From the NCBI GenBank assembly GCA_012519885.1, contig JAAYPI010000113.1, positions 1 to 40,857 of the forward strand: 40,857 nucleotides of DNA, read 5' to 3'. Below are positions 3,397-17,683 of this stretch, in pieces. The notes beneath the pieces are model-generated. The model worked only from the letters and a program-made list of their open reading frames with translations, searched no databases and was not told where the DNA came from. The first letter of the stretch is position 1; the number at the start of each line of letters is the position of its first letter. Position numbers and translations under genes: made by a program. Source of the DNA: Bacteroidales bacterium (GTDB lineage: Bacteria; Bacteroidota; Bacteroidia; Bacteroidales; Paludibacteraceae).

Positions 3397-4248
3397 ATGG
3401 CTTGGGTCAATTTTCATTCACACACTTCTTATTGCGATGGGATAGCACAGCCAGAGGCGTATGTGTTGCAAGCTATTGAGCTAAACATGCCTGCCTATGG
3501 ATTTTCTGGTCATGCTCCTATGCCATATAGTACAAATTGGGCGATAAAACAAGATCAACTAACATCGTATATTAATGAAATACAGCGACTTAAAGAAGTA
3601 TATACGTCCCAAATAGATATTTATTGTGCAGTAGAGGCTGATTATATTCCACAAATAACAGGTCCGCATCTGTTTACAAATTATCCCTTAGATTATATCA
3701 TTGGAGCTATCCATTTTGTTGGTTATTTTGCTGATGGAAAACCTTTTAGCGTAGCTGGCAAAGCCTTAGATTTTGATAAAGGACTAAAAGAAATTTATGG
3801 CAACGATATAAAACGCTTGGTAAAAGCCTATTTTTCGCTCAATTGTGAACTAATGCTCGAGGATACACCAACTATTTTAGCACATGCCGACTTGATTAAG
3901 AATGGGTTTCAAGACAGTGGTATTCAACAAGAAAAATGGTATCAACAGGCTTTGTTCGACATGATTGATGTGGCGTCTGAACGAGATGTTATTATCGAAA
4001 TTAATACACGAGGACTATACAAACAACGTACTACAGAACTATACCCCTGCGAACAGGCATTGCGGTATATGAAACAAAAAGGGGTGAGAATGATGCTCAG
4101 TGCCGATACTCATTTACTTACAGAGCTAACTTCGGGTTTTGAATATGCCGTAGGAGTACTACAAAATAATGGGATCAACGAGATTACTGTATTTCGTAAA
4201 GGGCAGTTTGTGGAAATTCCTTTTTCTTCTACCGGGTTTGATTATTGA
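3397..4248 (+). CDS. PHP-domain phosphoesterase, histidinol-phosphatase type
   Basis: A 283-aa PHP-fold protein. The metal-site motifs appear in order: NFHSHTSYCDG (residues ~5-15), FSGHAPMPY, the glutamate of VEADYIP, the histidine of GAIHFVG, ILAHADLIKNG and SADTH near the C-terminus. This set matches HisJ/HisK-type histidinol-phosphatases, which dephosphorylate L-histidinol phosphate in histidine biosynthesis. No other his genes lie in the window, so a different phosphoester substrate remains possible. It is transcribed alone from its own promoter and faces the trkH region tail to tail. Confidence 0.82.
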   Translation: MAWVNFHSHTSYCDGIAQPEAYVLQAIELNMPAYGFSGHAPMPYSTNWAIKQDQLTSYINEIQRLKEVYTSQIDIYCAVEADYIPQITGPHLFTNYPLDYIIGAIHFVGYFADGKPFSVAGKALDFDKGLKEIYGNDIKRLVKAYFSLNCELMLEDTPTILAHADLIKNGFQDSGIQQEKWYQQALFDMIDVASERDVIIEINTRGLYKQRTTELYPCEQALRYMKQKGVRMMLSADTHLLTELTSGFEYAVGVLQNNGINEITVFRKGQFVEIPFSSTGFDY

Positions 4249-4254
4249 TGGTAT

Positions 4255-4326
4255 AAAAACACAAAAGGCAGTCTCGCCTGACTGCCTACTTGCTAACCTT
4301 AAAAATCAAATACTATGAAAAATTCA
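4255..4326 (-). ncRNA. Candidate small RNA, copy 1 of a two-copy unit
   Basis: On the minus strand a perfect -7 element TATTTTTG (4331-4338), with TTG at 4360-4362, would start transcription near 4325. The transcript would run through a conserved ~35-nt AU-rich segment into a hairpin (arms 4280-4287 and 4266-4273, loop 4274-4279) followed by U-rich sequence ending near 4255, the form of a Rho-independent terminator. A second copy lies at 7813-7884 with one compensatory base-pair change in the stem. The hairpin could also simply end the trkH transcript. No coding capacity is evident. Confidence 0.45.
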
Positions 4327-4330
4327 TAAG

Positions 4331-4362
4331 CAAAAATACTATGATTTTGTAGTTTCTGGCAA
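4331..4362 (-). promoter_or_regulatory. Promoter-like element of small RNA copy 1
   Basis: The minus strand reads TATTTTTG at 4331-4338, a perfect TAnnTTTG, with TTG at 4360-4362 about 21 bp upstream. Confidence 0.45.
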
Positions 4363-4443
4363 TACGAGCTTACTCTTTGTCTATAAATTAACAGATTTTT
4401 ATAGAGATTTTACAAAGCTGTTACAATTTGACGTGATGTAGAC

Positions 4444-5912
4444 CTATTTTTTCCAAAAGGTAGGGGTGAAAATTAAGAAAAAGGTAAATAGTTCAAGTCT
4501 CCCAGCCAGCATTGCTACCGATAATATCCATTTACTGCTATCTGAAATAGCGGCGTAATTACCATATGGTCCAACAGAGCCTAACCCTGGTCCAACTCCT
4601 CCCAAGCAAGAAACCATACCACCAATAGATTCTTCAAAATTCATGCCTGTAGCAGCTAATATAAGTGAACCCGCTAGTGCCACTATAAGGTATAAAAATA
4701 AAAATCCTAATACTTTATTCAGGATACTTTCACTTACTAGCAAATTATTATACCGAACAGGCACAATTGCTTGAGGATGTAGTATTCTTTTAAACTCGTA
4801 GAAACAAGCTTTTATGGTAATCACAATGCGTATCATTTTAATACCACCACTTGTCGAACCAGCCGAAGCTCCTGTAAGCATTACAATGAGTAAAATAATC
4901 CATGTAAAAGGAGCCCATAAAACATAATCTGCGGTGCCAAAACCTGTAGTAGTCATTAAACTTGATACCGTAAACAATGCATCTCTAAATGCTTGTTCAA
5001 TAACTTGCCATGTTGTATCTGTGGAGAAAGTAAATAATGAAAACGTAATAATAAGGGTAAAGCTTATTAATACAAGTAAAAAGTAACGTAATTCTTCATT
5101 TTTAGAATTTTATCAAATCGTTTTTTAAAACCAAAGTAATATAAACTGAAGTTAATGCCTGATAATATCATAAAAAGAATAATAATGTACTGGATATAGG
5201 CGGAGTCCCAGTAGGCTATGCTTGATTGTTTTGTGGAGAATCCCCCTGTAGCAATAGTTGCGAACGAATGGCAGATTGCATCAAACCAGCCCATACCTCC
5301 AAAACGCAACAGTATCGTTTCTAAAAATGTAAGTATTACATAAATTAAAACTAAACGCTTTGCTGTTCCATGTATTTTGGGATGTATCTTGTCTTTTGTT
5401 GGTCCAGAAGTTTCTGCCGCAAATAATTGTGTGCCACTTGTACTAAATACAGGCATGATTGCCAACGAAATAACGATAATGCCAATACCACCAATCCAGT
5501 GAGTTAAACTTCGCCAAAATAACATCCCATGAGATAATTCTTCAATATTATTTAAAATGGAAGCTCCTGTAGTTGTAAAACCCGAAATTGTTTCAAAAAA
5601 AGCGTTTGTAAATGAAGGAATGGAGTTGCTTAACCAATAAGGGAGTAATCCAATTAAGGAAAAAAATATCCATGTGAAAGTTACAATAATGGATCCTTCT
5701 CTCTTGCCTATTTTGTCAGCATGATGATGTCCTAACCCAAATAATATAATCCCAATAATAAAACTAATAATGGCAGATACAATGAAATAAAAAGCATCTC
5801 CTTCATTATAGAAGATGGGAACAAGGCTTACTAGAAGTAAAATTATAGATTCTACCAACAATAATGCTCCAATAACTCGTACAACCAATCGAAAATTAAA
5901 TTGAGTATTCAT
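4444..5912 (-). pseudogene. trkH: TrkH-type potassium transporter, disrupted by a single-base frameshift
   Basis: The first frame (5912-5067) holds TrkH half 1 with two selectivity-filter loops, GFTTTGAS and ATGGFST. The rest, with loops MTTTGFGT and GGVGPGLG, continues in another frame to 4444 without an ATG start of its own. Adding one A to the A5 run at 5099-5103 (minus strand) joins the frames through KNEELRYFLL and restores an unbroken protein of ~489 aa, the usual TrkH size, with all four filters. TrkH is the membrane pore of a TrkA-gated K+ uptake system; no trkA is seen nearby. The conserved downstream half suggests either a very recent mutation or a homopolymer sequencing error. Confidence 0.85.
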
Positions 5913-6146: not shown

Positions 6147-7622
6147 TTACTGTTTTATCAATTTACCACGTAATGGTTCGTTGTTGTTCAGTAAGGTGTA
6201 TAGATACGTTCCCGGTGATAATTGAGATATAGATATTTTCCCTGAACCTTCTTGTAAAGTCGTTTGAGTAATCATAGATCCTTTGCTATCGTATAAGTAG
6301 AATCGTATATTGTTTTCAGCATCACTCACCACTTCTATATACTCATTAGTTGGATTGTAATAGACTTTTACGAATGCGTCTGTATCGTTTTCCATGATGT
6401 GTGTTGTGTTGTTGCCAGACGAATAATAATACGTTTGAATCTCAGTTTCCTCGTCTCCATTGTTATTATAGGATGATACTAACGACGTTACTTGGTGTTT
6501 GCTATTCGTAAAATTGGTATAGTAATTGGGTAACACTAACATGGTTAAGGTTACATTTTCATTGTAATTCCATTCATGCGTACTTCTATCTATCCAATTG
6601 TTGGTTGCTGTATTCCAATCAAAATAACGTAATGCCGTAATATCCCCACTGGCATTTACCTGAGCTTCTTGTTTATCAGTAATATCCCAACGCAAATGCT
6701 CAACATTCCATTTATAATTAATGATTGATAAGCTATTTCCATTGTTATCAAATTCAACATTGCTTTTATATAGGTTTTCCCATACTTGCAATATGCTGTT
6801 CCAAAAACTATATGTTTTTACAACTGGTCGTAGTTGATTATCCAGTAGGTATTCCTCTTTTGCCGATGGTTCCCATCTATTGGTGGTGTTATTTGAATAA
6901 AAATCATTTTTGCGGACTAAAGCTCCATTTGCATTGTATGTGTACTCTGTTTTAGAAGCGGGTACATATCCTTCGCTGTACGACACATCTGCAATACGTT
7001 GTTTTTTTATATCGTACACATAATCCGTTGTCCAGTCTACTATCCAGGTATTTGTTATTGTGTTCCAATTAGCATGAGTGCTTTTTGTTATAACACCTGC
7101 ATTGGTATAGGTATAAGCATATCTTTTAATGTTTTCCCATTTTTTTGTGTTACGGTCATATGTGATGTATTGTTCTGTAAGTGTTTGTCCATATACGTTA
7201 TATGTATATACTGTTTTCCATTGAGGAGTCCATTCTCCCAACACAATATTCCACGTATAATTGATAGATGTAGCTACTTTATTCGATTCATTATACAGCA
7301 AATCTACTTGTATTTCTGGTCGCCAAGACACTCCATTCCATTTATATTGTGTAAGCATGATATGTAATCCATTGTCATTATATAGGTATACAATTTTTTC
7401 TTTTCCCGCTACAACAATACTGTCTAGTTGTTGTTTGGGTTCAAGAGAAAGATTGCGTAATCCCGATGCTGCAGAAGGGTTGTTTGGAATGTGAAACCCA
7501 ATTATACTTGGATGTTCAGGTATAGTAGGTAAGGTAGTAAAACTACCAAACGCAATTGTAGGCGAAATAATAAGCCAACTTGCAATTAGTAATTTATGTA
7601 GTATTGTTTTCATGATATTCAT
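6147..7622 (-). CDS. Secreted repeat protein with T9SS type A sorting domain
   Basis: A 491-aa protein with an N-terminal signal peptide (hydrophobic LLIASWLIISPTIAFGS). The middle, residues ~70-400, is made of about nine imperfect ~43-residue repeats with the pattern WNxxTNxW followed by YxYNxxG, resembling YD/RHS-like or DUF3836-type repeats. The last ~75 residues (VVSDAENNIRFYLYDSKG, then SPGTYLYTLLNN and GKLIKQ) form a type IX secretion C-terminal sorting domain, so the protein is expected at the cell surface or outside. Function is unknown; such repeats usually build beta-rich structures. A second ATG at 7613 is an equally good start. It is a single-gene unit with its own promoter and terminator. 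Confidence 0.85.
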   Translation of the reverse strand: MNIMKTILHKLLIASWLIISPTIAFGSFTTLPTIPEHPSIIGFHIPNNPSAASGLRNLSLEPKQQLDSIVVAGKEKIVYLYNDNGLHIMLTQYKWNGVSWRPEIQVDLLYNESNKVATSINYTWNIVLGEWTPQWKTVYTYNVYGQTLTEQYITYDRNTKKWENIKRYAYTYTNAGVITKSTHANWNTITNTWIVDWTTDYVYDIKKQRIADVSYSEGYVPASKTEYTYNANGALVRKNDFYSNNTTNRWEPSAKEEYLLDNQLRPVVKTYSFWNSILQVWENLYKSNVEFDNNGNSLSIINYKWNVEHLRWDITDKQEAQVNASGDITALRYFDWNTATNNWIDRSTHEWNYNENVTLTMLVLPNYYTNFTNSKHQVTSLVSSYNNNGDEETEIQTYYYSSGNNTTHIMENDTDAFVKVYYNPTNEYIEVVSDAENNIRFYLYDSKGSMITQTTLQEGSGKISISQLSPGTYLYTLLNNNEPLRGKLIKQ

Positions 7623-7686
7623 TTTTAGTTTTTTGCTTAATCTAACAAATTATAATTTGTATAGTATTATCGGCGAAATTCTGATA

Positions 7687-7694
7687 CAAATGTA
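7687..7694 (-). promoter_or_regulatory. -7 element of the T9SS cargo gene
   Basis: The minus strand reads TACATTTG, a perfect TAnnTTTG, giving a leader of about 60 nt. Confidence 0.5.
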
Positions 7695-7812
7695 ATAGGT
7701 ATACTATCAAACCAGAATCATTTACACGTATTTTTACATGTTATTTAACATAAATACAGTAAGATTTTACAATCTTATTACAAAATAAATGAATATGTAA
7801 ACAAAACATCCT

Positions 7813-7884
7813 AAAAAAACAAAAGGTAGTCTCGCCTGACTACCTACTTGTTAACCTTAAAATCAAATACTATGAAAAAATCAT
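7813..7884 (-). ncRNA. Candidate small RNA, copy 2 of a two-copy unit
   Basis: This copy aligns with 4261-4328 over ~67 bp with only a few differences. The stem pairs 7838-7845 with 7824-7831 around the same TCGCCT loop, and the one changed stem base is compensated on the other arm. On the minus strand the hairpin is followed by a T7 run (7813-7819), a good Rho-independent end. Upstream, TACTTTCG (7889-7896) is one mismatch from TAnnTTTG, with TTTG at 7916-7919. No minus-strand gene lies upstream before the tRNA, so this copy cannot be just the terminator of a neighbouring mRNA. Confidence 0.5.
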
Positions 7885-7888
7885 ACTG

Positions 7889-7919
7889 CGAAAGTAAGGT
7901 GTTTACTAAACTATTCAAA
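7889..7919 (-). promoter_or_regulatory. Promoter-like element of small RNA copy 2
   Basis: The minus strand has TACTTTCG at 7889-7896 (one mismatch to TAnnTTTG) and TTTG at 7916-7919, with a 19-bp spacer. Confidence 0.4.
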
Positions 7920-8107
7920 AAAATGAACCCATAAATCCGTATTTTTATCCTTATTAAGTGCTGAATGTTACAAATTTATTACAAAACAGTCGTTTCATTG
8001 TTCAATTTTTTTGTTTCCTTGCTGTAGCTATTAGATGGGGAAATAATAAAAGAGGCTATTTTTTTAAGTAAAATGCACTCAAAATAAAGAAAATCAGTGA
8101 ATTTGTT

Positions 8108-8136
8108 TTTGTTTTGAAAATATTTTTATACTTTTG
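8108..8136 (+). promoter_or_regulatory. tRNA-Leu promoter
   Basis: TTTG at 8108-8111 and TACTTTTG at 8129-8136, with a 17-bp spacer, lie 10 bp before the mature tRNA. Confidence 0.6.
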
Positions 8137-8146
8137 CATCGCTTTT

Positions 8147-8228
8147 GCGGCTGTGGCGTAATTGGTAGCCGCGCCAGACTTAGGATCTGGTGCCGAGAGG
8201 CGTGGGGGTTCGAGTCCCTTCAGCCGCA
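8147..8228 (+). tRNA. tRNA-Leu (UAG anticodon)
   Basis: The 7-bp acceptor stem GCGGCTG/CAGCCGC closes a class II tRNA with a long variable arm (around 8191-8203). The anticodon stem CCAGA/TCTGG encloses loop CTTAGGA, giving anticodon TAG at 8181-8183, which reads CUA and other CUN leucine codons. The T-arm has GGTTCGAGTCC. The discriminator is A at 8228 and CCA is not encoded. Confidence 0.96.
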
Positions 8229-8239
8229 CAACAAAAAAG

Positions 8240-8273
8240 AACCGTTGTCTTAGCAAACACAACGGTTTTTTTT
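8240..8273 (+). terminator. Terminator after tRNA-Leu
   Basis: A 9-bp perfect stem AACCGTTGT/ACAACGGTT (8240-8248 with 8259-8267) is followed by a run of T residues. Confidence 0.85.
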
Positions 8274-8323
8274 GCCTATAACAAAAAGTATTTTGCTGAA
8301 TAATAAATTAATTTCGTAGTACA

Positions 8324-9676
8324 ATGAATGTTTCACAAACCAACATCGACCAAGTAAATGCCGTACTTTCAATTCAAGTAAAAAAAGCGGATTATACTGA
8401 AAAAGTAGAAAAATCATTAAAAGATTATCGTAAAAAAGCAAATATGCCTGGGTTTAGACCAGGAACTGTGCCTCTTGGATTAATCAAAAAGATGTACGGA
8501 AAAGCTATTTTGGCAGAAGAAATTAATAAACTTGTTTCAGAATCGCTATACGATCATATCCAAAAGAATAATATACCTGTTTTGGGAGAGCCTCTTCCAT
8601 CGGAAAACGCCCCTGTGCCAAATTTTGACACACAAGAGGATTTCGATTTTTCTTTTGATATTGCTCTGGCTCCTGAAATCAACCTTAATTTAACAACCAA
8701 AAATAAGGTAACATTATACAATATTGCTGTAAGTGACGAAATGGTTGCCAAACAAGTAGATGCTTACAAAGGACGTTTTGGAAAACACGCTCCAGCGGAT
8801 AAGGTAGAAGAAAAAGATGTAGTAAAAGGCGAATTAGTTGAGTTATTGCCTAATGGCGATATCAACGAAAATGGTATTAAAGTAGAAAATGCTCTATTAA
8901 GTCCTGCGTATATGAAAGACAAAAAAGAGCAAGCTAAAGTTATTGGATTAGCTCTTGAGTCGCAATTTAGGTTTAATCCAGCTAAAGCATTTGAAAGCGA
9001 AACAGAAATAGCCTCTTTATTGCAAGTTAGTAAAGAAATTGCTGCCGATTGCAAAGCTGATTTCTTGTTTACCATCAAAGATATTACACGCTATGTCGAG
9101 GCTGAAATGAATCAAGATTTATTTGATGCAGCTCTTGGAAAAGATGTGGTATCTTCTGAGGCTGAATTTATTGATAAAATTAAAGAAAGCTTAAAAGCTC
9201 AATTTGCTGTTGATAGTGAGTTTAAACTGTCTATTGACATGAAGGAGTTGGTGGTTAAACAACTTGAAGGCTTAGCTTTTCCTGATGTATTCTTAAAAAG
9301 ATGGTTGAAAGTGAGCAACGAAAACCTGACCGAAGACGCTATTGAACAAGAATATCCTAAAATGATAGAAGATTTGAAATGGCAATTAGCAAAGGATAAA
9401 GTGGCGAAAGAAAACGAATTGAAATTAGAAAAAGAAGACGTAGAAGCAGTAGCCAAACAAGCAGCTAAAGCTCAATTTGCTCAATATGGCATGATGAATG
9501 TGCCTGATGATGTACTTGATGGCTATGTAAAAGATATGCTTAAAAACAAAGATGCTGCAAAAAATATTACCGAACGTGCCGTAGAACAAAAAACAATTGA
9601 TGCCCTAAAAACAAAAGTAACAATTGTTTCAAAAGAAATATCATTCGAAGATTTTAACAAACTGTTTGAAAATTAA
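8324..9676 (+). CDS. tig: Trigger factor, ribosome-associated chaperone
   Basis: A 450-aa protein. The N-terminal ribosome-binding domain (about 1-110) carries the signature GFRPGTVPLGLIKKMYG at ~43-59. A middle region (~150-250) corresponds to the FKBP-like domain, which looks degenerate as is usual in Bacteroidetes, followed by a long helical C-terminal chaperone region. Trigger factor binds at the ribosome exit tunnel and shields nascent chains. It precedes clpP and clpX, an order common across bacteria that couples folding with degradation. A weak -7-like TAATTTCG lies at 8309-8316; transcription from the tRNA is blocked by the terminator. Confidence 0.95.
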   Translation: MNVSQTNIDQVNAVLSIQVKKADYTEKVEKSLKDYRKKANMPGFRPGTVPLGLIKKMYGKAILAEEINKLVSESLYDHIQKNNIPVLGEPLPSENAPVPNFDTQEDFDFSFDIALAPEINLNLTTKNKVTLYNIAVSDEMVAKQVDAYKGRFGKHAPADKVEEKDVVKGELVELLPNGDINENGIKVENALLSPAYMKDKKEQAKVIGLALESQFRFNPAKAFESETEIASLLQVSKEIAADCKADFLFTIKDITRYVEAEMNQDLFDAALGKDVVSSEAEFIDKIKESLKAQFAVDSEFKLSIDMKELVVKQLEGLAFPDVFLKRWLKVSNENLTEDAIEQEYPKMIEDLKWQLAKDKVAKENELKLEKEDVEAVAKQAAKAQFAQYGMMNVPDDVLDGYVKDMLKNKDAAKNITERAVEQKTIDALKTKVTIVSKEISFEDFNKLFEN

Positions 9677-9698
9677 GCATATAGGATATAAAAAATAC

Positions 9699-9797
9699 TA
9701 AAAAAACTTTCTTTTAAATTTGGGAGTGTAATTTGTTTGTTTTAAAACAAAAAAAAATTATACCTTTGTTTCCCTGATTTAAAAGAAAGTTTTTTTA
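9699..9797. repeat. 21-bp perfect inverted repeat bracketing the clpP promoter
   Basis: Arms 9699-9719 and 9777-9797 are exact reverse complements separated by 57 bp that contain the clpP promoter. A 16-bp palindrome (TTTGTTTTAAAACAAA, 9736-9751) lies between the arms. Read-through RNA from tig could fold the arms together, while RNA starting at the clpP promoter would contain only the right arm. Confidence 0.75.
9732..9768 (+). promoter_or_regulatory. clpP promoter
   Basis: TACCTTTG at 9761-9768 is a perfect -7 element; TTTG copies at 9732-9735 and 9736-9739 are possible -33 elements (25- and 21-bp spacers). Transcription would start about at the right arm of the inverted repeat. Confidence 0.6.
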
Positions 9798-9822
9798 TGT
9801 ACCATATAATTTGGAAAACAAT

Positions 9823-10491
9823 ATGAATACAGAATTTAAAAAATATGCAACAAAGCATCTCGGAATGAACGGATTGGCTTTGGATAAATATGTGGATATT
9901 ACAAGTAGCTATATATCGCCAACTATTATTGAAGAAAGACAACTCAATGTCGCACAAATGGATGTTTTTTCACGTTTGATGATGGACAGAATTATCTTTT
10001 TAGGAACACAAGTGGACGATTATACTGCCAATGTAATTCAGGCTCAATTGTTGTATCTTGATTCTGCCGATCCAGGGAAAGATATTTCTATTTATCTTAA
10101 TACACCTGGAGGTTCTGTGTATGCAGGCTTAGGTATATACGATACCATGCAGTTTATTTCTAGCAATGTAGCTACCATTTGTACAGGCATGGCAGCTTCT
10201 ATGGGTGCTGTACTACTTACCGCTGGTACTGCAGGCAAACGTTCAGCATTAAAGCACTCCCGTATTATGATTCACCAACCAATGGGTGGAGCTCAAGGTC
10301 AAGCTTCGGATATTGAAATTACTGCCCGTGAAATTCAAAAACTCAAAAAAGAATTATACACCATTATTGCCGAACATTCGGGCAATACATATGAACGTAT
10401 CGAACAGGACTCTGACCGTGACTATTGGATGACGGCAGAAGAAGCAAAAGCCTATGGTATGATTGACGAGGTGTTGGTAAAACAAAAATAA
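9823..10491 (+). CDS. clpP: ATP-dependent Clp protease proteolytic subunit
   Basis: A 222-aa ClpP from the ATG at 9823; a TTG four codons upstream would also be in frame but is less likely. The catalytic triad is visible: serine in [11 protein letters not shown], histidine in [12 protein letters not shown] and aspartate in [10 protein letters not shown]. ClpP forms a double heptameric barrel that degrades proteins fed in by ClpX. Other family blocks are [11 protein letters not shown] near the N-terminus and [12 protein letters not shown]. clpX follows 20 bp later, so the two are expected to be co-expressed from the promoter at 9732-9768. Confidence 0.96.
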
Positions 10492-10511
10492 GAGCAAGTA
10501 GGTATAAAGTT

Positions 10512-11732
10512 ATGTCAAAGAAAGACGATAAATGTAGTTTTTGTGGACGAGGACGTCAGGAAGTGCCTCTACTGATGCAAGGACAAACAGGAAATATATG
10601 CAACGATTGTGCCGAACAAGCTGCTACCATTGCCAAAGAGACTTTTTCTAAACAAACGGATAAGTATCAACTCGATAAACAAACCTTGCCTAAACCACAA
10701 GAATTAAAGGCATTTGTTGATCAGTATGTAATTGGACAAGATGATGCAAAAAAGAATCTATGTGTAGCCGTTTACAATCACTATAAACGATTGTTACAAA
10801 AAAACACACATGATGATGTAGAGATTGAAAAATCGAACATCATTTTAGTTGGAGCTACAGGCACAGGAAAAACCTTGTTAGCACGCACTATTGCTAAAAA
10901 ACTGCATGTCCCTTTTACTATTGTAGATGCAACTGTTTTAACCGAAGCAGGGTATGTTGGTGAAGATATCGAAAGTATCTTAACTCGCCTATTGCAAGTA
11001 GCTGACTATGATGTGAAAGCTGCTGAAAAAGGTATCGTATTTATTGACGAAATAGATAAAATTGCTCGCAAAGGAGACAATCCTTCTATTACTCGCGATG
11101 TGAGTGGTGAGGGCGTACAACAAGGATTACTAAAGCTCCTTGAAGGTTCTATTGTAAACGTACCTCCTCAAGGAGGACGAAAACATCCTGACCAAAAAAT
11201 GATTGCCGTAAATACTCAAAATATTTTATTTATTTGTGGGGGAGCATTTGATGGTATTGAGAAAAAAATTGCAGCACGATTAAATACTCAAATAGTGGGA
11301 TATGCGGCTGCAAAAATAACGCATCAAATAGATAAAGATAATTTACTTCAATATATTTCACCACAAGACTTAAAAGCTTTTGGATTGATACCCGAAATAA
11401 TTGGAAGATTACCTATTTTAACGTATCTCAATCCATTAGATAGAGAAGCATTGAGATTAATATTAACCGAACCAAAGAATTCTATTATCAAGCAATATAA
11501 AAAATTGTTTGCCATGGATGATGTTGTATTAGAGTTTGACAAAGATGTTCTTGATTATATTGTAGATAAATCTATTGAATATAAGCTGGGTGCTAGAGGT
11601 TTACGCTCTATCGCTGAGATGATTATGGTAGATTATATGTATGATATACCTTCATCAAATGAACATCAATTACGCATTCCTTTGGCAATAGCCAAAGAGA
11701 AAGTGGAGAAAGGAAGAATGACACCAGTGTAA
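10512..11732 (+). CDS. clpX: Clp protease ATP-binding subunit ClpX
   Basis: A 406-aa AAA+ unfoldase. The zinc-binding domain has Cys8, Cys11, Cys30 and Cys33. Walker A is GATGTGKT at 114-121, the pore loop is GYVGED, and Walker B is VFIDEID. ClpX recognises tagged substrates, unfolds them with ATP and passes them into ClpP. The ClpP-docking loop usually reads IGF or LGF; the corresponding stretch here is QIVGYAAAK, a conservative variant. It follows clpP by 20 bp without a promoter of its own. Confidence 0.96.
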
Positions 11733-11758
11733 TTTATTCAAAATTTTTCTCGCTTTCA

Positions 11759-11789
11759 TTTGATTATTAAAAACAAGTTATTACATTTG
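11759..11789 (+). promoter_or_regulatory. recQ promoter
   Basis: TTTG at 11759-11762 and TACATTTG at 11782-11789, with a 19-bp spacer, suggest recQ can be expressed apart from clpPX. Confidence 0.55.
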
Positions 11790-11837
11790 TTTTATTATAC
11801 AAACAAGAGCAACTAGTTTTAATCTTACATTATTGTA

Positions 11838-14027
11838 ATGTCAACATCGTCTGTACTTACACAAGAATTAAAAAAGAATTTTGGATTCGATTCTTTTAAA
11901 GGGAATCAAGAAGCCATTATTAAAAATCTGTTAGCAGGTAATGATACATTTGTATTGATGCCTACTGGGGGAGGTAAGTCTTTGTGTTACCAGTTACCGT
12001 CGCTTATGATGGAAGGAACAGCTATCGTTATTTCTCCACTTATCGCTTTGATGAAAAATCAAGTAGATGCAATGAAAGCATTTAGCGAAGAAGATGGCGT
12101 GGCTCATTTTTTAAATTCATCACTATCGAAAGCAGCTATCGAAGATGTGAAAAATGATGTTATTTCTGGCAAAACGAAATTGTTGTATGTAGCCCCTGAA
12201 TCTCTTACCAAAGAAGAAAATATTTTATTTCTGAAAAAAGTAAAAATTTCTTTTTATGCAGTTGATGAGGCTCATTGTATTTCGGAATGGGGGCACGATT
12301 TTAGACCAGAATACCGCAGAATTCGTCCGTTAATTAATGAAATAGGTTCAGCTCCAGTGGTAGCTCTTACTGCAACGGCTACACCCAAAGTGCAACATGA
12401 TATACAAAAAAATTTAGGAATGGTAAATGCTACTGTTTTTAAATCGTCTTTTAATAGAGAAAATTTGTATTATGAGGTACGCACAAAGAATCAGCATATT
12501 GATAAAGAAATTATTAAATATATCAAATCGCAACATGGTAAGTCGGGTATTATTTATTGTTTAAGTCGTAAGAAAGTAGAAGAATTAGCTGAAACTCTCT
12601 GTTTAAATGGAATAAATGCCTTGCCATACCATGCGGGAATGGAATCTGCTGTTCGTACAGCCAATCAAGATAGTTTTTTGATGGAAAAAGTTGATGTAAT
12701 TGTGGCAACAATTGCATTTGGAATGGGTATTGATAAGCCCGATGTTCGTTTTGTAATACATTACGATATACCCAAAAGCCTCGAAGGTTATTACCAAGAA
12801 ACAGGTAGAGCTGGTAGAGATGGAGGTGAAGGTCAATGCATTACGTTTTACTCAAATAAAGACTTGCAGAAATTAGAAAAATTTATGCAAGGAAAACCTA
12901 TATCAGAACAAGAAATTGGCAAACAACTCTTGTTAGAAACGGCAGCTTATGCTGAGTCGTCTGTATGTAGAAGGACATTATTGTTACATTATTTCGGAGA
13001 AGAATTCACACAAGACAATTGTGGTAGTTGTGATAATTGTTTGAACCCTAAGAAGCAAATGGAAGCACAGGATTTATTATGTACAGTTTTGGAAACGATC
13101 CTTTCAGTGAAAGAAAAATTTAAGGCTGAGCATATTGTAGATGTAATCGTTGGGAAAGAAACCGCGGAAGTGATTGATTATAAACACCAAGATTTGGAAG
13201 TATATGGTACAGGCGAAAGCGAAAAGCCGACTGTTTGGCATGCTGTTATACGACAAGGTATGTTATCTGGCTATATCGACAAAGAGATAGAAAATTATGG
13301 ATTGTTGAAGGTTACCAAAAGTGGTCGTGCTTTTTTAGAAAAACCTACAAGCTTTAAGATAACAAAAGATAATGATTTTGAGGAAGAAGATGATGATGAT
13401 GCAACCATAAGAAGGTCGGGTGGAGGCACTGGAGCTGCTGATGAGGTATTGTTTTCTATGCTCAAAGACTTACGAAAGAAGATGTCGAAGAGATTGGAAG
13501 TTCCGCCTTTTGTCATTTTCCAAGACCCTTCGTTGGAGGCAATGGCTACAACGTATCCAGTTACTATGGAAGAGTTGCAGAATATACCTGGAGTAGGTGC
13601 AGGTAAAGCCAAACGCTATGGAGAAGATTTTTTGCGTTTGATTAAAACACATGTGCAAGAAAATGAAATTGAACGCCCTGTTGATTTACGGGTGCGTACA
13701 GTGGCTAATAAATCTAAACTAAAAGTCTTTATCATTCAAGCTATTGACAGAAAAATTGCATTAGATGATATCGCTATATCCAAGGGGTTAGAGTTTCCTG
13801 AGTTGTTGGATGAGATTGAAGCCATCATTTATTCGGGTACTAAAATCAATATCGATTATTTTATCAACGAGGTAATGGAGGAAGATCATATCTCGGATAT
13901 ATACGAGTATTTTAGAGAGTCTCAAACAGACGAAGTGGAAACAGCTCTTGCCGAATTGGGAAGCGATTATACAGAAGAAGAAATTCGATTGATACGCATA
14001 AAGTTTGTGTCTGAAATGGGCAATTAA
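11838..14027 (+). CDS. recQ: ATP-dependent DNA helicase RecQ
   Basis: A 729-aa RecQ. Motif I is MPTGGGKSLCYQLP (~41-54), the DEAH box is at ~143-146, and the RecQ signature QETGRAGRDG lies in motif VI. A zinc-binding region has a cysteine in SSVCRR and three in NCGSCDNC, followed by the winged-helix RQC domain. An HRDC domain (from DEVLFSMLKDLRKK to IPGVGAGKAKRYGEDFL) comes next, then a ~120-residue acidic C-terminal extension with a helix-turn-helix look, as is common in Bacteroidetes RecQ. An acidic linker (EEEDDDD) precedes HRDC. It unwinds DNA in recombination and fork repair. Confidence 0.95.
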   Translation: MSTSSVLTQELKKNFGFDSFKGNQEAIIKNLLAGNDTFVLMPTGGGKSLCYQLPSLMMEGTAIVISPLIALMKNQVDAMKAFSEEDGVAHFLNSSLSKAAIEDVKNDVISGKTKLLYVAPESLTKEENILFLKKVKISFYAVDEAHCISEWGHDFRPEYRRIRPLINEIGSAPVVALTATATPKVQHDIQKNLGMVNATVFKSSFNRENLYYEVRTKNQHIDKEIIKYIKSQHGKSGIIYCLSRKKVEELAETLCLNGINALPYHAGMESAVRTANQDSFLMEKVDVIVATIAFGMGIDKPDVRFVIHYDIPKSLEGYYQETGRAGRDGGEGQCITFYSNKDLQKLEKFMQGKPISEQEIGKQLLLETAAYAESSVCRRTLLLHYFGEEFTQDNCGSCDNCLNPKKQMEAQDLLCTVLETILSVKEKFKAEHIVDVIVGKETAEVIDYKHQDLEVYGTGESEKPTVWHAVIRQGMLSGYIDKEIENYGLLKVTKSGRAFLEKPTSFKITKDNDFEEEDDDDATIRRSGGGTGAADEVLFSMLKDLRKKMSKRLEVPPFVIFQDPSLEAMATTYPVTMEELQNIPGVGAGKAKRYGEDFLRLIKTHVQENEIERPVDLRVRTVANKSKLKVFIIQAIDRKIALDDIAISKGLEFPELLDEIEAIIYSGTKINIDYFINEVMEEDHISDIYEYFRESQTDEVETALAELGSDYTEEEIRLIRIKFVSEMGN

Positions 14028-14050
14028 CTTCTTGCAGAAATAAGATTTTT

Positions 14051-14085
14051 AAAGAGATAGCGTTTATTTGTTATCTCTTTTTTTT
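14051..14085 (+). terminator. recQ terminator
   Basis: A 9-bp perfect stem AAAGAGATA/TATCTCTTT (14051-14059 with 14072-14080) and a T-run follow recQ by 23 bp. Confidence 0.8.
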
Positions 14086-14116
14086 GTAAAAAATGGGACA
14101 ACGAAAAGTTGTCCCA
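14086..14116 (-). terminator. Terminator of the TonB receptor gene
   Basis: The stem TGGGACAAC/GTTGTCCCA (14094-14102 with 14108-14116) has a 5-nt loop and, on the minus strand, is followed by a T-run. It stands back to back with the recQ terminator. Confidence 0.8.
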
Positions 14117-14150
14117 CAAAAGAAAAGGCTCACTACTTCATCTTCTTTTT

Positions 14151-16451
14151 TTATAGTTTTAGACTTAGTCCTACGAAAAATGTTCGAGGCAATGTAGGTC
14201 CGTAAATATATCCAGCATCTTTATCCATACCTTTATCTAAGTCAGGCTGAAAGCTATCCAGTATATTTTTTACACCTCCGTTTACTTCAAGTGCATAGTA
14301 TTTGTAAAAAGGTATTTTGTATGCTAGTTTAACCCCCATATCCCAAAATGGAGATGAAATTGTTTCAGTATCTTCGGCTATGTAACCTGCAAAATGTGGT
14401 ACTAGCATACTTCCTGTATATTTACCAGATACTGATGCTGTAAAGTTTTTAGTTGCGTTATAATTCATAACAGCGTATCCATAATGGTCTGGTGTGCGTT
14501 GCATGCGTCTTGTGGCTTCGATAGCAGTATTGGTTGACCAGGTTACTGGTTCATCATATAAGCTACTTTGTAAGGTATAGCCTAGTTGTAGTGATAGTAA
14601 GTTTTTATATCCTAACACTCCTTCGATATTTACTCCCGTTACGGTTGCTCCCGATTCATTAACCCGCAACAATAATAAGTTTCCTTTGCTGTCAAAACCA
14701 TTTTCTTCTAGTGCAAATACATCATTCAGTTTTGTATAGAAGCCATCTACCGTTAAGTTGGTTTCCCAAAAACCAAAACGATGGTATGCATCTGCTGATA
14801 CAGAGAAACTATGCGAATATTCAGGACGAAGGTTTGCGTCTTGTGAGATAATAGACACTTCTCCACCCACAGCCGCTACGTGTAAATCTTCGTTGTATAT
14901 TTGTGGAGCACGGTATCCGCTAGCGTATCCAGTTCTTAGTACAATGTTGTGTGTTGGGTTGTAGCGTAAACTTACACGGGGCGATACCACTGGATTGTTC
15001 ATTAAATTGTGTTTTTCTACACGAGCACCTGCCAATAGGCTTAGTTGATTATTCTTCCACTCATTTTGAAGGTATCCACCAAAGATGCTAACATTTTGGT
15101 TTACATCAATTCCGTGTCCTAACATTTGGTCTTGAAGTTGATTATATGTATATTCAATTCCCATACTAAAATCTGCTGGCATAAACAATAGATTATCCAT
15201 CGAATAGCGGTATTGGGCTCCTGTTACAGAATTAATATCCTTTGATTTTCCATAGGCGTCAAGGTCTTGACCTGTTCCAAAATAACTATTACGCACAATA
15301 TGTTGAAATGCACTATAGGTAGAAATAAAGTGTTTGTTATCTTTGGTATACAAATCAAATTTAACGCTACCTGCATCTATGTTATGTTGAAGTTGCTCTG
15401 CTAAATTGGCTTCATGGGCTGGTAAATCGAGCAAGTCGCCTCCTCTTCTGTATTCAGTTGAATGGTGGTATTCGGTAGTAATTTTTGAATAATTACTAGT
15501 TTTAAAGTACGAGCGAAAGCCTACTACAGAACCTTGCAATGCGGGTATTTCAGAAAACCCATCATTGTCTCTATCGTATGCCTGTCTGTCGCGTAATACT
15601 CCAAATAAAAATACGCCTACGTTGGAATTGTTACCGATAATTGAGGCATTGAACGTAGTATTGGCATCTATTGCAGTATTACCCATGAGTGCAGTATTAT
15701 TGGATAGCTCAACAAAATTGCGTGTAGGTTCTTTGGTAATGATATTTACTACACCTCCGATTGCATTTGACCCATATAATGCAGAAGCTCCACCTCTAAT
15801 AACTTCTACTCTATCTATCATTCCAGTTGGCATTTGTTCTAGTCCGTATACCGAAGCCAACGAGCTAAATAATGGGCGACTGTCTAATAATAATTGGGAA
15901 TAATGACCTTCTAATCCATTAATACGCAATTGCGGAACGCCACAATTACCACATGTCATTTCAGTACGTAACCCAGTTTGATAATCTAAGGCTTCGCCTA
16001 TACTATTTGCCGAAGTACTTGTGAAAATAAGTGGGGTAACGACATTTACAATAGACGATGTTTCTTTTTTCTTTGTTTCATATTTATTCCCTGTTACTAC
16101 AATATTATCCATCATAATGGATGTTTCTTCCAGTTTAATTTTTAACTCAAGTGTTTTGTTGGGTTCTATTGTTATTGTTCTTTCAACGGTTTGGTATCCA
16201 ACCATGGAATATATGATGGTAAAGGTTCCGATAGGTAGATTTTTTAGAAAATAATGACCCGAAGCGTCAGTCATTATACCAATGGTAGTTCCTTTAATTA
16301 CTACGTTAACATAGGGTAAATGATCGCCAGAGTGAGCATCTGTAACGTCCCCTACAATATGTGCATCGGTTACTTTGGATGCTGGAATTTGTGCTGATAA
16401 AATAGCACAAAAAGAAAAGATAAAAAAGCTAAATAGAATTATTTTTTTCAT
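14151..16451 (-). CDS. TonB-dependent receptor with CxxC plug motif
   Basis: A 766-aa outer-membrane receptor. A signal peptide (1-20) is followed by a CarboxypepD_reg-like domain (~31-110), a plug (~125-240, including GGASALYGSNAIGGVVNIIT) and a beta-barrel ending in the aromatic-type FVGLSLKL. The plug carries Cys167-Gly-Asn-Cys170 just before the substrate-facing loop (LRINGLEGHYSQ), a feature of one receptor subgroup and a plausible metal-binding or redox pair. TonB receptors import metal chelates, cofactors or glycans with energy from TonB-ExbBD. No SusD partner is present, arguing against glycan uptake. The upstream neighbour is a histidine-rich membrane protein; together they suggest metal uptake, which is inference. 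Confidence 0.88.
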   Translation of the reverse strand: MKKIILFSFFIFSFCAILSAQIPASKVTDAHIVGDVTDAHSGDHLPYVNVVIKGTTIGIMTDASGHYFLKNLPIGTFTIIYSMVGYQTVERTITIEPNKTLELKIKLEETSIMMDNIVVTGNKYETKKKETSSIVNVVTPLIFTSTSANSIGEALDYQTGLRTEMTCGNCGVPQLRINGLEGHYSQLLLDSRPLFSSLASVYGLEQMPTGMIDRVEVIRGGASALYGSNAIGGVVNIITKEPTRNFVELSNNTALMGNTAIDANTTFNASIIGNNSNVGVFLFGVLRDRQAYDRDNDGFSEIPALQGSVVGFRSYFKTSNYSKITTEYHHSTEYRRGGDLLDLPAHEANLAEQLQHNIDAGSVKFDLYTKDNKHFISTYSAFQHIVRNSYFGTGQDLDAYGKSKDINSVTGAQYRYSMDNLLFMPADFSMGIEYTYNQLQDQMLGHGIDVNQNVSIFGGYLQNEWKNNQLSLLAGARVEKHNLMNNPVVSPRVSLRYNPTHNIVLRTGYASGYRAPQIYNEDLHVAAVGGEVSIISQDANLRPEYSHSFSVSADAYHRFGFWETNLTVDGFYTKLNDVFALEENGFDSKGNLLLLRVNESGATVTGVNIEGVLGYKNLLSLQLGYTLQSSLYDEPVTWSTNTAIEATRRMQRTPDHYGYAVMNYNATKNFTASVSGKYTGSMLVPHFAGYIAEDTETISSPFWDMGVKLAYKIPFYKYYALEVNGGVKNILDSFQPDLDKGMDKDAGYIYGPTLPRTFFVGLSLKL

Positions 16452-16481
16452 ATCTATGAATATTTATACAAAAAATTTTGT

Positions 16482-16510
16482 TACCTGTTTTGATTATAAA
16501 ACAACAGGTA
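16482..16510 (-). promoter_or_regulatory. Hairpin in the TonB receptor leader, possible attenuator
   Basis: Eight-bp arms (TACCTGTT at 16482-16489, AACAGGTA at 16503-16510) lie 31 bp before the receptor start; on the minus strand they are followed by AAAATTTTTTG. It could attenuate read-through from the His-rich gene. Confidence 0.35.
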
Positions 16511-16631
16511 TTCACTGTTTACTGTTTGTGTGTTGAGCTTAAATTAGGTTGTACGGTATGTATTTGATCTAGCCGTTTCATTGACACATTGATATTGTAA
16601 TTATGTGTTTGGGATATCTAGGTCAATATCA

Positions 16632-16967
16632 TTATAAAAAAAGAGGAGGAGGTCTTCGGTGCCTATGTTCTAACTTATGAGAATGTATGTGTATTGAGTA
16701 ATTCCTGTAAAGTAGTAGAAACGTAAGTATACTAAAACATACGAGAGAACTAATGGAGAGTACAATTATTTGCCCTATTTGATGGTGAATATTCCATATC
16801 CAATCTGCCTGGGTATGTGAGTGGGACTTGGAAGAGAATGGATGTGAATGTGTAATAATGGTATTATTAACAATATGCGTATGCGAAAGCAAGGTAGAAC
16901 TTACCCAGTAAGCAATAAATAGGAATGCTAGGAATCCGTGTATAGAGGTTGAGTGCTTGTGTTTCAT
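16632..16967 (-). CDS. Histidine-rich two-TM membrane protein
   Basis: A 111-aa protein with 16 histidines. Predicted membrane segments are ~11-28 and ~64-87; the loop between them carries SHTH, ITHSHPF and KSHSHT, ending in IHH, and the C-terminal tail has IHIHSHKLEHRH. Clustered His of this kind typically binds Zn, Cu or Ni. I recognise the HSHPF loop pattern from short Bacteroidales proteins found near metal-related TonB receptors, but know no defined function. The start at 16967 is chosen because the promoter -7 element at 16980-16987 lies inside the longer upstream version. It precedes the TonB receptor on the same strand by 180 bp. Confidence 0.7.
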   Translation of the reverse strand: MKHKHSTSIHGFLAFLFIAYWVSSTLLSHTHIVNNTIITHSHPFSSKSHSHTQADWIWNIHHQIGQIIVLSISSLVCFSILTFLLLYRNYSIHIHSHKLEHRHRRPPPLFL

Positions 16968-16979
16968 ATTTTTATGGTG

Positions 16980-16987
16980 CAAAAATA
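16980..16987 (-). promoter_or_regulatory. -7 element of the His-rich gene
   Basis: The minus strand reads TATTTTTG; the start codon follows only 12 nt later, so the leader is very short. No clear -33 is seen. Confidence 0.5.
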
Positions 16988-17038
16988 CAACGGAAGAATG
17001 GGAGTATTGTACCATAAAAAAACTATATGTAGTGATAT

Positions 17039-17683
17039 TTATCTGTTTTTATCACTACTTGTAGTGATTGTAGGATGAATGAGAGAGCATTCATACCCTT
17101 TTTCTTTCCAAAATGCTAATGATTTTGGTAGTGCATAGCGTAAGTTTTTTTCAGCCTTCAATGAGTCGTGAAATACAATTATAGAACCGTTTCTAGAATA
17201 TTTTTTTACATTTTGCAATATTATTTCTGGAGGCAACGTAGCATCGTAATCGCGTGTAATAACATCCCAAAGAACAATTTTAAATGTGTGCTTGAGTTTT
17301 TTTATCTGTCGAGGGGTTATATGTCCATGTGGTGGTCTAAATAAATCACTATTGATAAGTTTTTGAGCACGTGCAATATCTTCAAAGAATATTTTTGTGT
17401 CGGTAAACATCCCTCGTTTGTGGGTGTATGCATGATTGCCTACTTGATGCCCTCGTTGTTGAATTTCTAGAAACAAGTCGGGATATTTTTCAACATTATT
17501 GCCAATACAAAAAAATGTAGCTTTTACATTATACATATCAAGCAAATCTAAAATCCAAGGTGTTATTTCCGGAGTAGGTCCATCATCAAATGTAAGAAAA
17601 ATCTTTTTTTCTTTGGCGTTTCCTCTCCATATTACTGGTTGGAAGAAACGCCTTATACATTGAGGAACTTGTTCTATTAGCAT
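17039..17683 (-). CDS. Polysaccharide deacetylase (NodB-type)
   Basis: A 214-aa carbohydrate esterase family 4 protein. Motif 1 is TFDDGP (~30-35), motif 2 is GNHAYTHK with the HxxxH metal ligands, motif 3 is RPPHG, and VFHDS near the end is motif 5. Such enzymes remove N-acetyl (or similar) groups from peptidoglycan, chitin-like or surface glycans using a divalent metal. There is no signal peptide or clear membrane anchor, so it may act inside the cell or be poorly anchored. It starts 8 bp after the DUF2723 gene and is surely co-transcribed with it, suggesting a common envelope-glycan job. Confidence 0.88.
   Translation of the reverse strand: MLIEQVPQCIRRFFQPVIWRGNAKEKKIFLTFDDGPTPEITPWILDLLDMYNVKATFFCIGNNVEKYPDLFLEIQQRGHQVGNHAYTHKRGMFTDTKIFFEDIARAQKLINSDLFRPPHGHITPRQIKKLKHTFKIVLWDVITRDYDATLPPEIILQNVKKYSRNGSIIVFHDSLKAEKNLRYALPKSLAFWKEKGYECSLIHPTITTSSDKNR

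Follow-up and report, generated by a model that had tools for sequence, protein, structure and literature searches.

The window, a stretch of 40,857 nucleotides covering positions 1 to 40,857 of contig JAAYPI010000113.1 in a Paludibacteraceae genome (Bacteroidales bacterium, GCA_012519885.1), carries two copies of a short repeat unit that are very probably paralogous genes for trans-acting small RNAs (sRNAs) of the FopS type. Each has a promoter motif, a terminator and an antisense seed of its own, with which it would be expressed and would regulate other genes. The two units closely resemble FopS (family of paralogous sRNAs), a known group of Bacteroidales RNAs that turn off the translation of particular surface-protein genes, and are divergent extra members of it, not something new.

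Family assignment of the two repeat units

The copies are 92% identical over 74 bp (E = 6.9e-24). The sequence-only reading had placed them at 4261–4328 and 7819–7885; both exist with this identity, but the limits given by the covariance model are a few bases off those positions. Copy 1 occupies 4255–4325 (71 nt) and copy 2 occupies 7813–7882 (70 nt), both on the minus strand. A catalogued Bacteroidales RNA family had been foreseen as a possible match, with a covariance-model search as the check, and both copies do match RF04319 (BTncRNA_FopS). In a permissive cmscan of short stretches the match spans the full model in each copy (1–71 of 71 in copy 1), at 47.2 bits (E 5.4e-6) for copy 1 and 55.2 bits (E 1.2e-7) for copy 2. 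At the gathering threshold, a cmscan of the window returned no RF04319 match, only tRNA. The standard search is silent on both units because both score below the curated gathering cut-off of RF04319, 56 bits, a value set for the database, not a biological trait.

A search of the whole genome with RF04319 found the two copies of the window (on contig C50), two more at intergenic sites of contig C186 (at 10556 and 15487), and two weak matches. Four copies are clear at E < 1e-5, and there is a possible fifth at 26 bits, so that what had been described as a two-copy unit is present in at least four copies. All four clear copies fall below 56 bits (47.2, 55.2, 53 and 47.7). The 26-bit match, at C72:29207 (L123 9207–9272), has a strong terminator hairpin and a disrupted seed and is a possible degenerate fifth FopS copy. 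The other weak match, C38:10570, was rejected as an sRNA: its opposite strand looks like a genuine initiation region, which makes it a candidate target.

The units share with the FopS sRNAs of B. thetaiotaomicron and its relatives a full-length model match at 70–73 nt, a 3’ Rho-independent terminator hairpin, a sigma-ABfr-type promoter motif, several paralogues per genome, and an unpaired 5’ seed of the R1/R1’ type with the common pattern UUUUUCAU.GUAUU.GAU.UUAAGGUUA. An RRM protein in the genome is also common to both; two RbpB-like single-RRM proteins, of 81 and 104 aa, are encoded here. The seed reads CAUAG and UUUGAU in this genome where FopS has CAUGG and UUAGAU, the linker to the hairpin is shorter, the stem is different and the loop has 6 nt. 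There are 4–5 copies, compared to 12–15 in the FopS genomes, this genome has only one true SusC, and the units score under the curated RF04319 cut-off.

Two other families are more distant. GibS (RF04182) has the same R1 seed at its 5’ end (CAUAGUAUU), but against its model, which spans 142 positions, the units reach only 19.0 and 23.2 bits where the cut-off is 115, and an RNA of 70 nt is too short to accommodate the second GibS seed, R2. The likeness to BTnc231 (RF04180) is weak, though on the same strand: the scores are 19.7 and 21.6 bits, the cut-off is 80.4, and the model has 154 positions.

Promoter, terminator and seed

On the minus strand each unit consists of an AU-rich 5’ part of ~37 nt, an 8-bp hairpin with the loop AGGCGA, and a U-rich tail. 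In copy 1 the hairpin lies at 4266–4287, with the stem AGGCAGUC/GACUGCCU, and the tail (UUUGUGUUUUU) at 4255–4265; in copy 2 they lie at 7824–7845, with the stem AGGUAGUC/GACUACCU, and at 7813–7823. The stems differ by one compensatory change from C-G to U-A and the loop is identical (TCGCCT on the plus strand), which bears out the C-G to T-A change with a conserved loop that had been noticed from the sequence alone. The terminator-like U-tract that had been read on the minus strand is likewise there, as part of a terminator-like site found at 4287–4266. Each 81-nt minus-strand stretch folded with a lower energy than any of its 200 dinucleotide shuffles (z of -3.0 and -3.7).

A Bacteroidota-type promoter motif, TTG-N19/21-TAnnTT[T/C]G, ends 5–6 nt upstream of the units; it is a motif, and the start site is predicted. 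In copy 1 the -7 element (TATTTTTG, 4331–4338, minus strand) ends 5 nt upstream of the unit and is separated by a 21-nt spacer from the -33 TTG at 4360–4362. In copy 2 the -7 element (TACTTTCG, 7889–7896, minus strand) ends 6 nt upstream, with a 19-nt spacer and the TTG at 7916–7918. The offsets of the -7 element, previously described as the same in both copies, are thus nearly equal. All of the 38 members examined have TAnnTT[T/C]G ending 4–7 nt before the predicted 5’ end (shuffle mean 0.28), and 30 of the 38 also have TTG 17–23 nt further upstream (shuffle mean 0.03). Together with the terminator on the minus strand, the promoter element in these relatives supports the proposal that each copy would be a complete minus-strand RNA gene of ~70 nt.

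The seed of copy 1 (UUUUUCAUAGUAUUUGAUUUUUAAGGUUAG, 4293–4322, minus strand) is R1/R1’-like, is antisense to an AUG-containing initiation-region sequence, and is largely unpaired within the 71-nt body. In an alignment of 32 members its columns are near-invariant, with two clade-specific changes, and the hairpin is variable with compensation. Across 21 distinct hairpins, stem positions 1–9, counted from the loop outward, each show several standard pair types; as the search that yielded these hairpins selected for pairing, the stem covariation is descriptive and does not test the structure independently. The hairpin covaries while the 5’ seed is near-invariant, so the covariation belongs to a Rho-independent terminator, and the changes in the hairpin support selection for termination and stability. 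Selection on RNA structure had been read from the change between the two copies; the change is real, but the structure under it is the terminator, and the near-invariant part of the RNA is the seed, which on the evidence of the alignment is presumably the functional part.

The good terminator formed by the hairpin and U-tail, and the position of copy 1 on the same strand as trkH, ~119 nt past the end of its frame, could mean that the units are no more than Rho-independent terminators belonging to upstream genes (trkH in the case of copy 1) that were duplicated along with some flank. This is very unlikely and was rejected: conservation is highest in the 5’ seed, not in the hairpin; all 38 members carry the promoter element at a near-fixed offset; and copy 2 precedes a gene, and on its strand no frame of at least 80 aa ends just before it.

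A functional plus strand, with a leader and start codon (CTAACCTTAAAAATCAAATACTATGAAAAA) followed by a short peptide or gene remnant, is scarcely credible and was also rejected. The plus strand does resemble a Bacteroidota initiation region, with ATGAAAAA after an A-rich leader, but a seed that is antisense to such regions accounts for this. The frames that follow the ATG are short and unlike between the copies (4 and 20 residues), and it is the minus strand that bears the promoter element and U-tail. The units are better read as minus-strand sRNA genes.

Genomic context

The trkH gene (4444–5912, minus strand) is split into two frames, 5912–5067 and 4977–4444. The syntenic gene of a congeneric genome, G001, is an intact frame of 489 aa, and the split is a frameshift that is either real or an error in the MAG sequence.

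Directly downstream of copy 2, the gene at 6147–7622 (minus strand) encodes a 491-aa protein with a match to DUF3836 and a T9SS C-terminal sorting domain. As this gene is on the same strand and begins ~190 nt after the copy 2 terminator, copy 2 might be its cis-acting leader or attenuator. The other copies are in unrelated contexts (copy 1 follows trkH and is convergent with a hisJ-like gene, and two are at the intergenic C186 sites), so a cis role is extremely unlikely and was rejected in favor of trans-acting sRNAs. On the other side of copy 2, a tRNA gene (8147–8228, plus strand) is found 265 bp beyond its 5’ end.

Proposed mechanism and predicted targets

In B. thetaiotaomicron, FopS sRNAs use R1’ to pair with susC-type mRNAs at the initiation region and block translation in vitro, and RbpB antagonises FopS (PMC11697453). 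The units of this genome have the same anatomy. Transcription of each would start at its own sigma-ABfr-type promoter, of the kind found in Bacteroidota, run along the minus strand and end at the Rho-independent terminator hairpin. The unpaired 5’ seed (UUUUUCAUAGUAUUUGAUUUUAAGGUUA) is antisense to A-rich regions of translation initiation with the pattern UUAACCUUAAA...AUGAAAAAA. By pairing with such regions it most likely keeps ribosomes from loading on mRNAs that encode exported or surface glycan-handling proteins, and an RbpB-type protein with a single RRM is a probable competitor for the sRNA. We infer both pairing-based repression and RbpB antagonism in this genome from the published system.

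Target prediction by duplex energy covered 503 predicted genes in 616 kb, 27% of the genome. The same three genes ranked first to third for all four copies. The first was a lipoprotein with a Cthe_2159 carbohydrate-binding domain on contig C38 (-24.4 to -28.7 kcal/mol), and the other two were an FGE-sulfatase-domain lipoprotein (C188) and a 140-aa protein with a signal-peptide-like start (C57). For the copy 2 seed, 22 genes were at or below -18, compared to 8.6 ± 4.4 for shuffled seeds. Of the 60 shuffled seeds, one or more had an equally low best energy (-28.9), and one or more matched the count of 22 genes; the predicted enrichment is modest, a lead and not proof. Initiation regions resembling the complement of the seed (TAACCTT...ATGAA) were in no excess in a pattern search, with 16 found and 20 in the reversed control, and are thus not evidence for many targets. 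The gene for the best predicted target (L140 10615–11667) is followed by one for a T9SS-tail protein; the initiation region of this second gene, too, gives one of the better pairings with copy 2.

The one clear SusC of the genome (C96) was not a strong predicted target, ranking 21, 135, 201 and 173 of 503 for copies 1–4. The FopS system of the Paludibacteraceae may have been re-aimed, so that the branch with the altered seed would control other surface glycan-binding or exported proteins, such as the Cthe_2159 lipoprotein, in place of SusC transporters; we regard this as doubtful. A FopS-type pair is ordinary in this order, and different targets are a possibility.

Distribution in relatives

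Of 150 genomes from the same family, 137 have an RF04319 match at E ≤ 0.001, and 121 have one that exceeds the 56-bit cut-off. In a wider sample of 198 genomes from across the order, matches at E ≤ 1e-4 occur in 39, which represent more than twenty families. FopS-type sRNAs have been described as conserved within the Bacteroidaceae; the present matches add Paludibacteraceae-like gut bacteria to their range, which within the sampled genomes takes in more than twenty families of the Bacteroidales. The current RF04319 cut-off misses likely divergent members. With about four copies in a small genome, deletion of the whole family would be easier here than in B. thetaiotaomicron, which has 14.

Both copies are found at the same places in G001. 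The window region 3397–5714 aligns to 6235–8556 of that genome at 71% identity, and 8061–14210 aligns to 10928–17069 at 81%. Copy 2 and its counterpart are 97.5% identical over 81 bp, compared to the 71% and 81% of these two blocks.

Matches to the exact pattern of this branch are confined to MAGs named Paludibacteraceae, Bacteroidales or Bacteroidia, several of them from ruminants and horses, a hint at the host; to judge by its relatives, the genome is a Paludibacteraceae-like MAG of gut origin. A phage-borne copy of FopS has already been noted (PMC11697453). The seed pattern is present in 31 IMG/VR stretches, and a FopS-like sequence is found in Bacteroides phage BX-TP2 (PQ571285.1 44777–44851) and in four other phage records.
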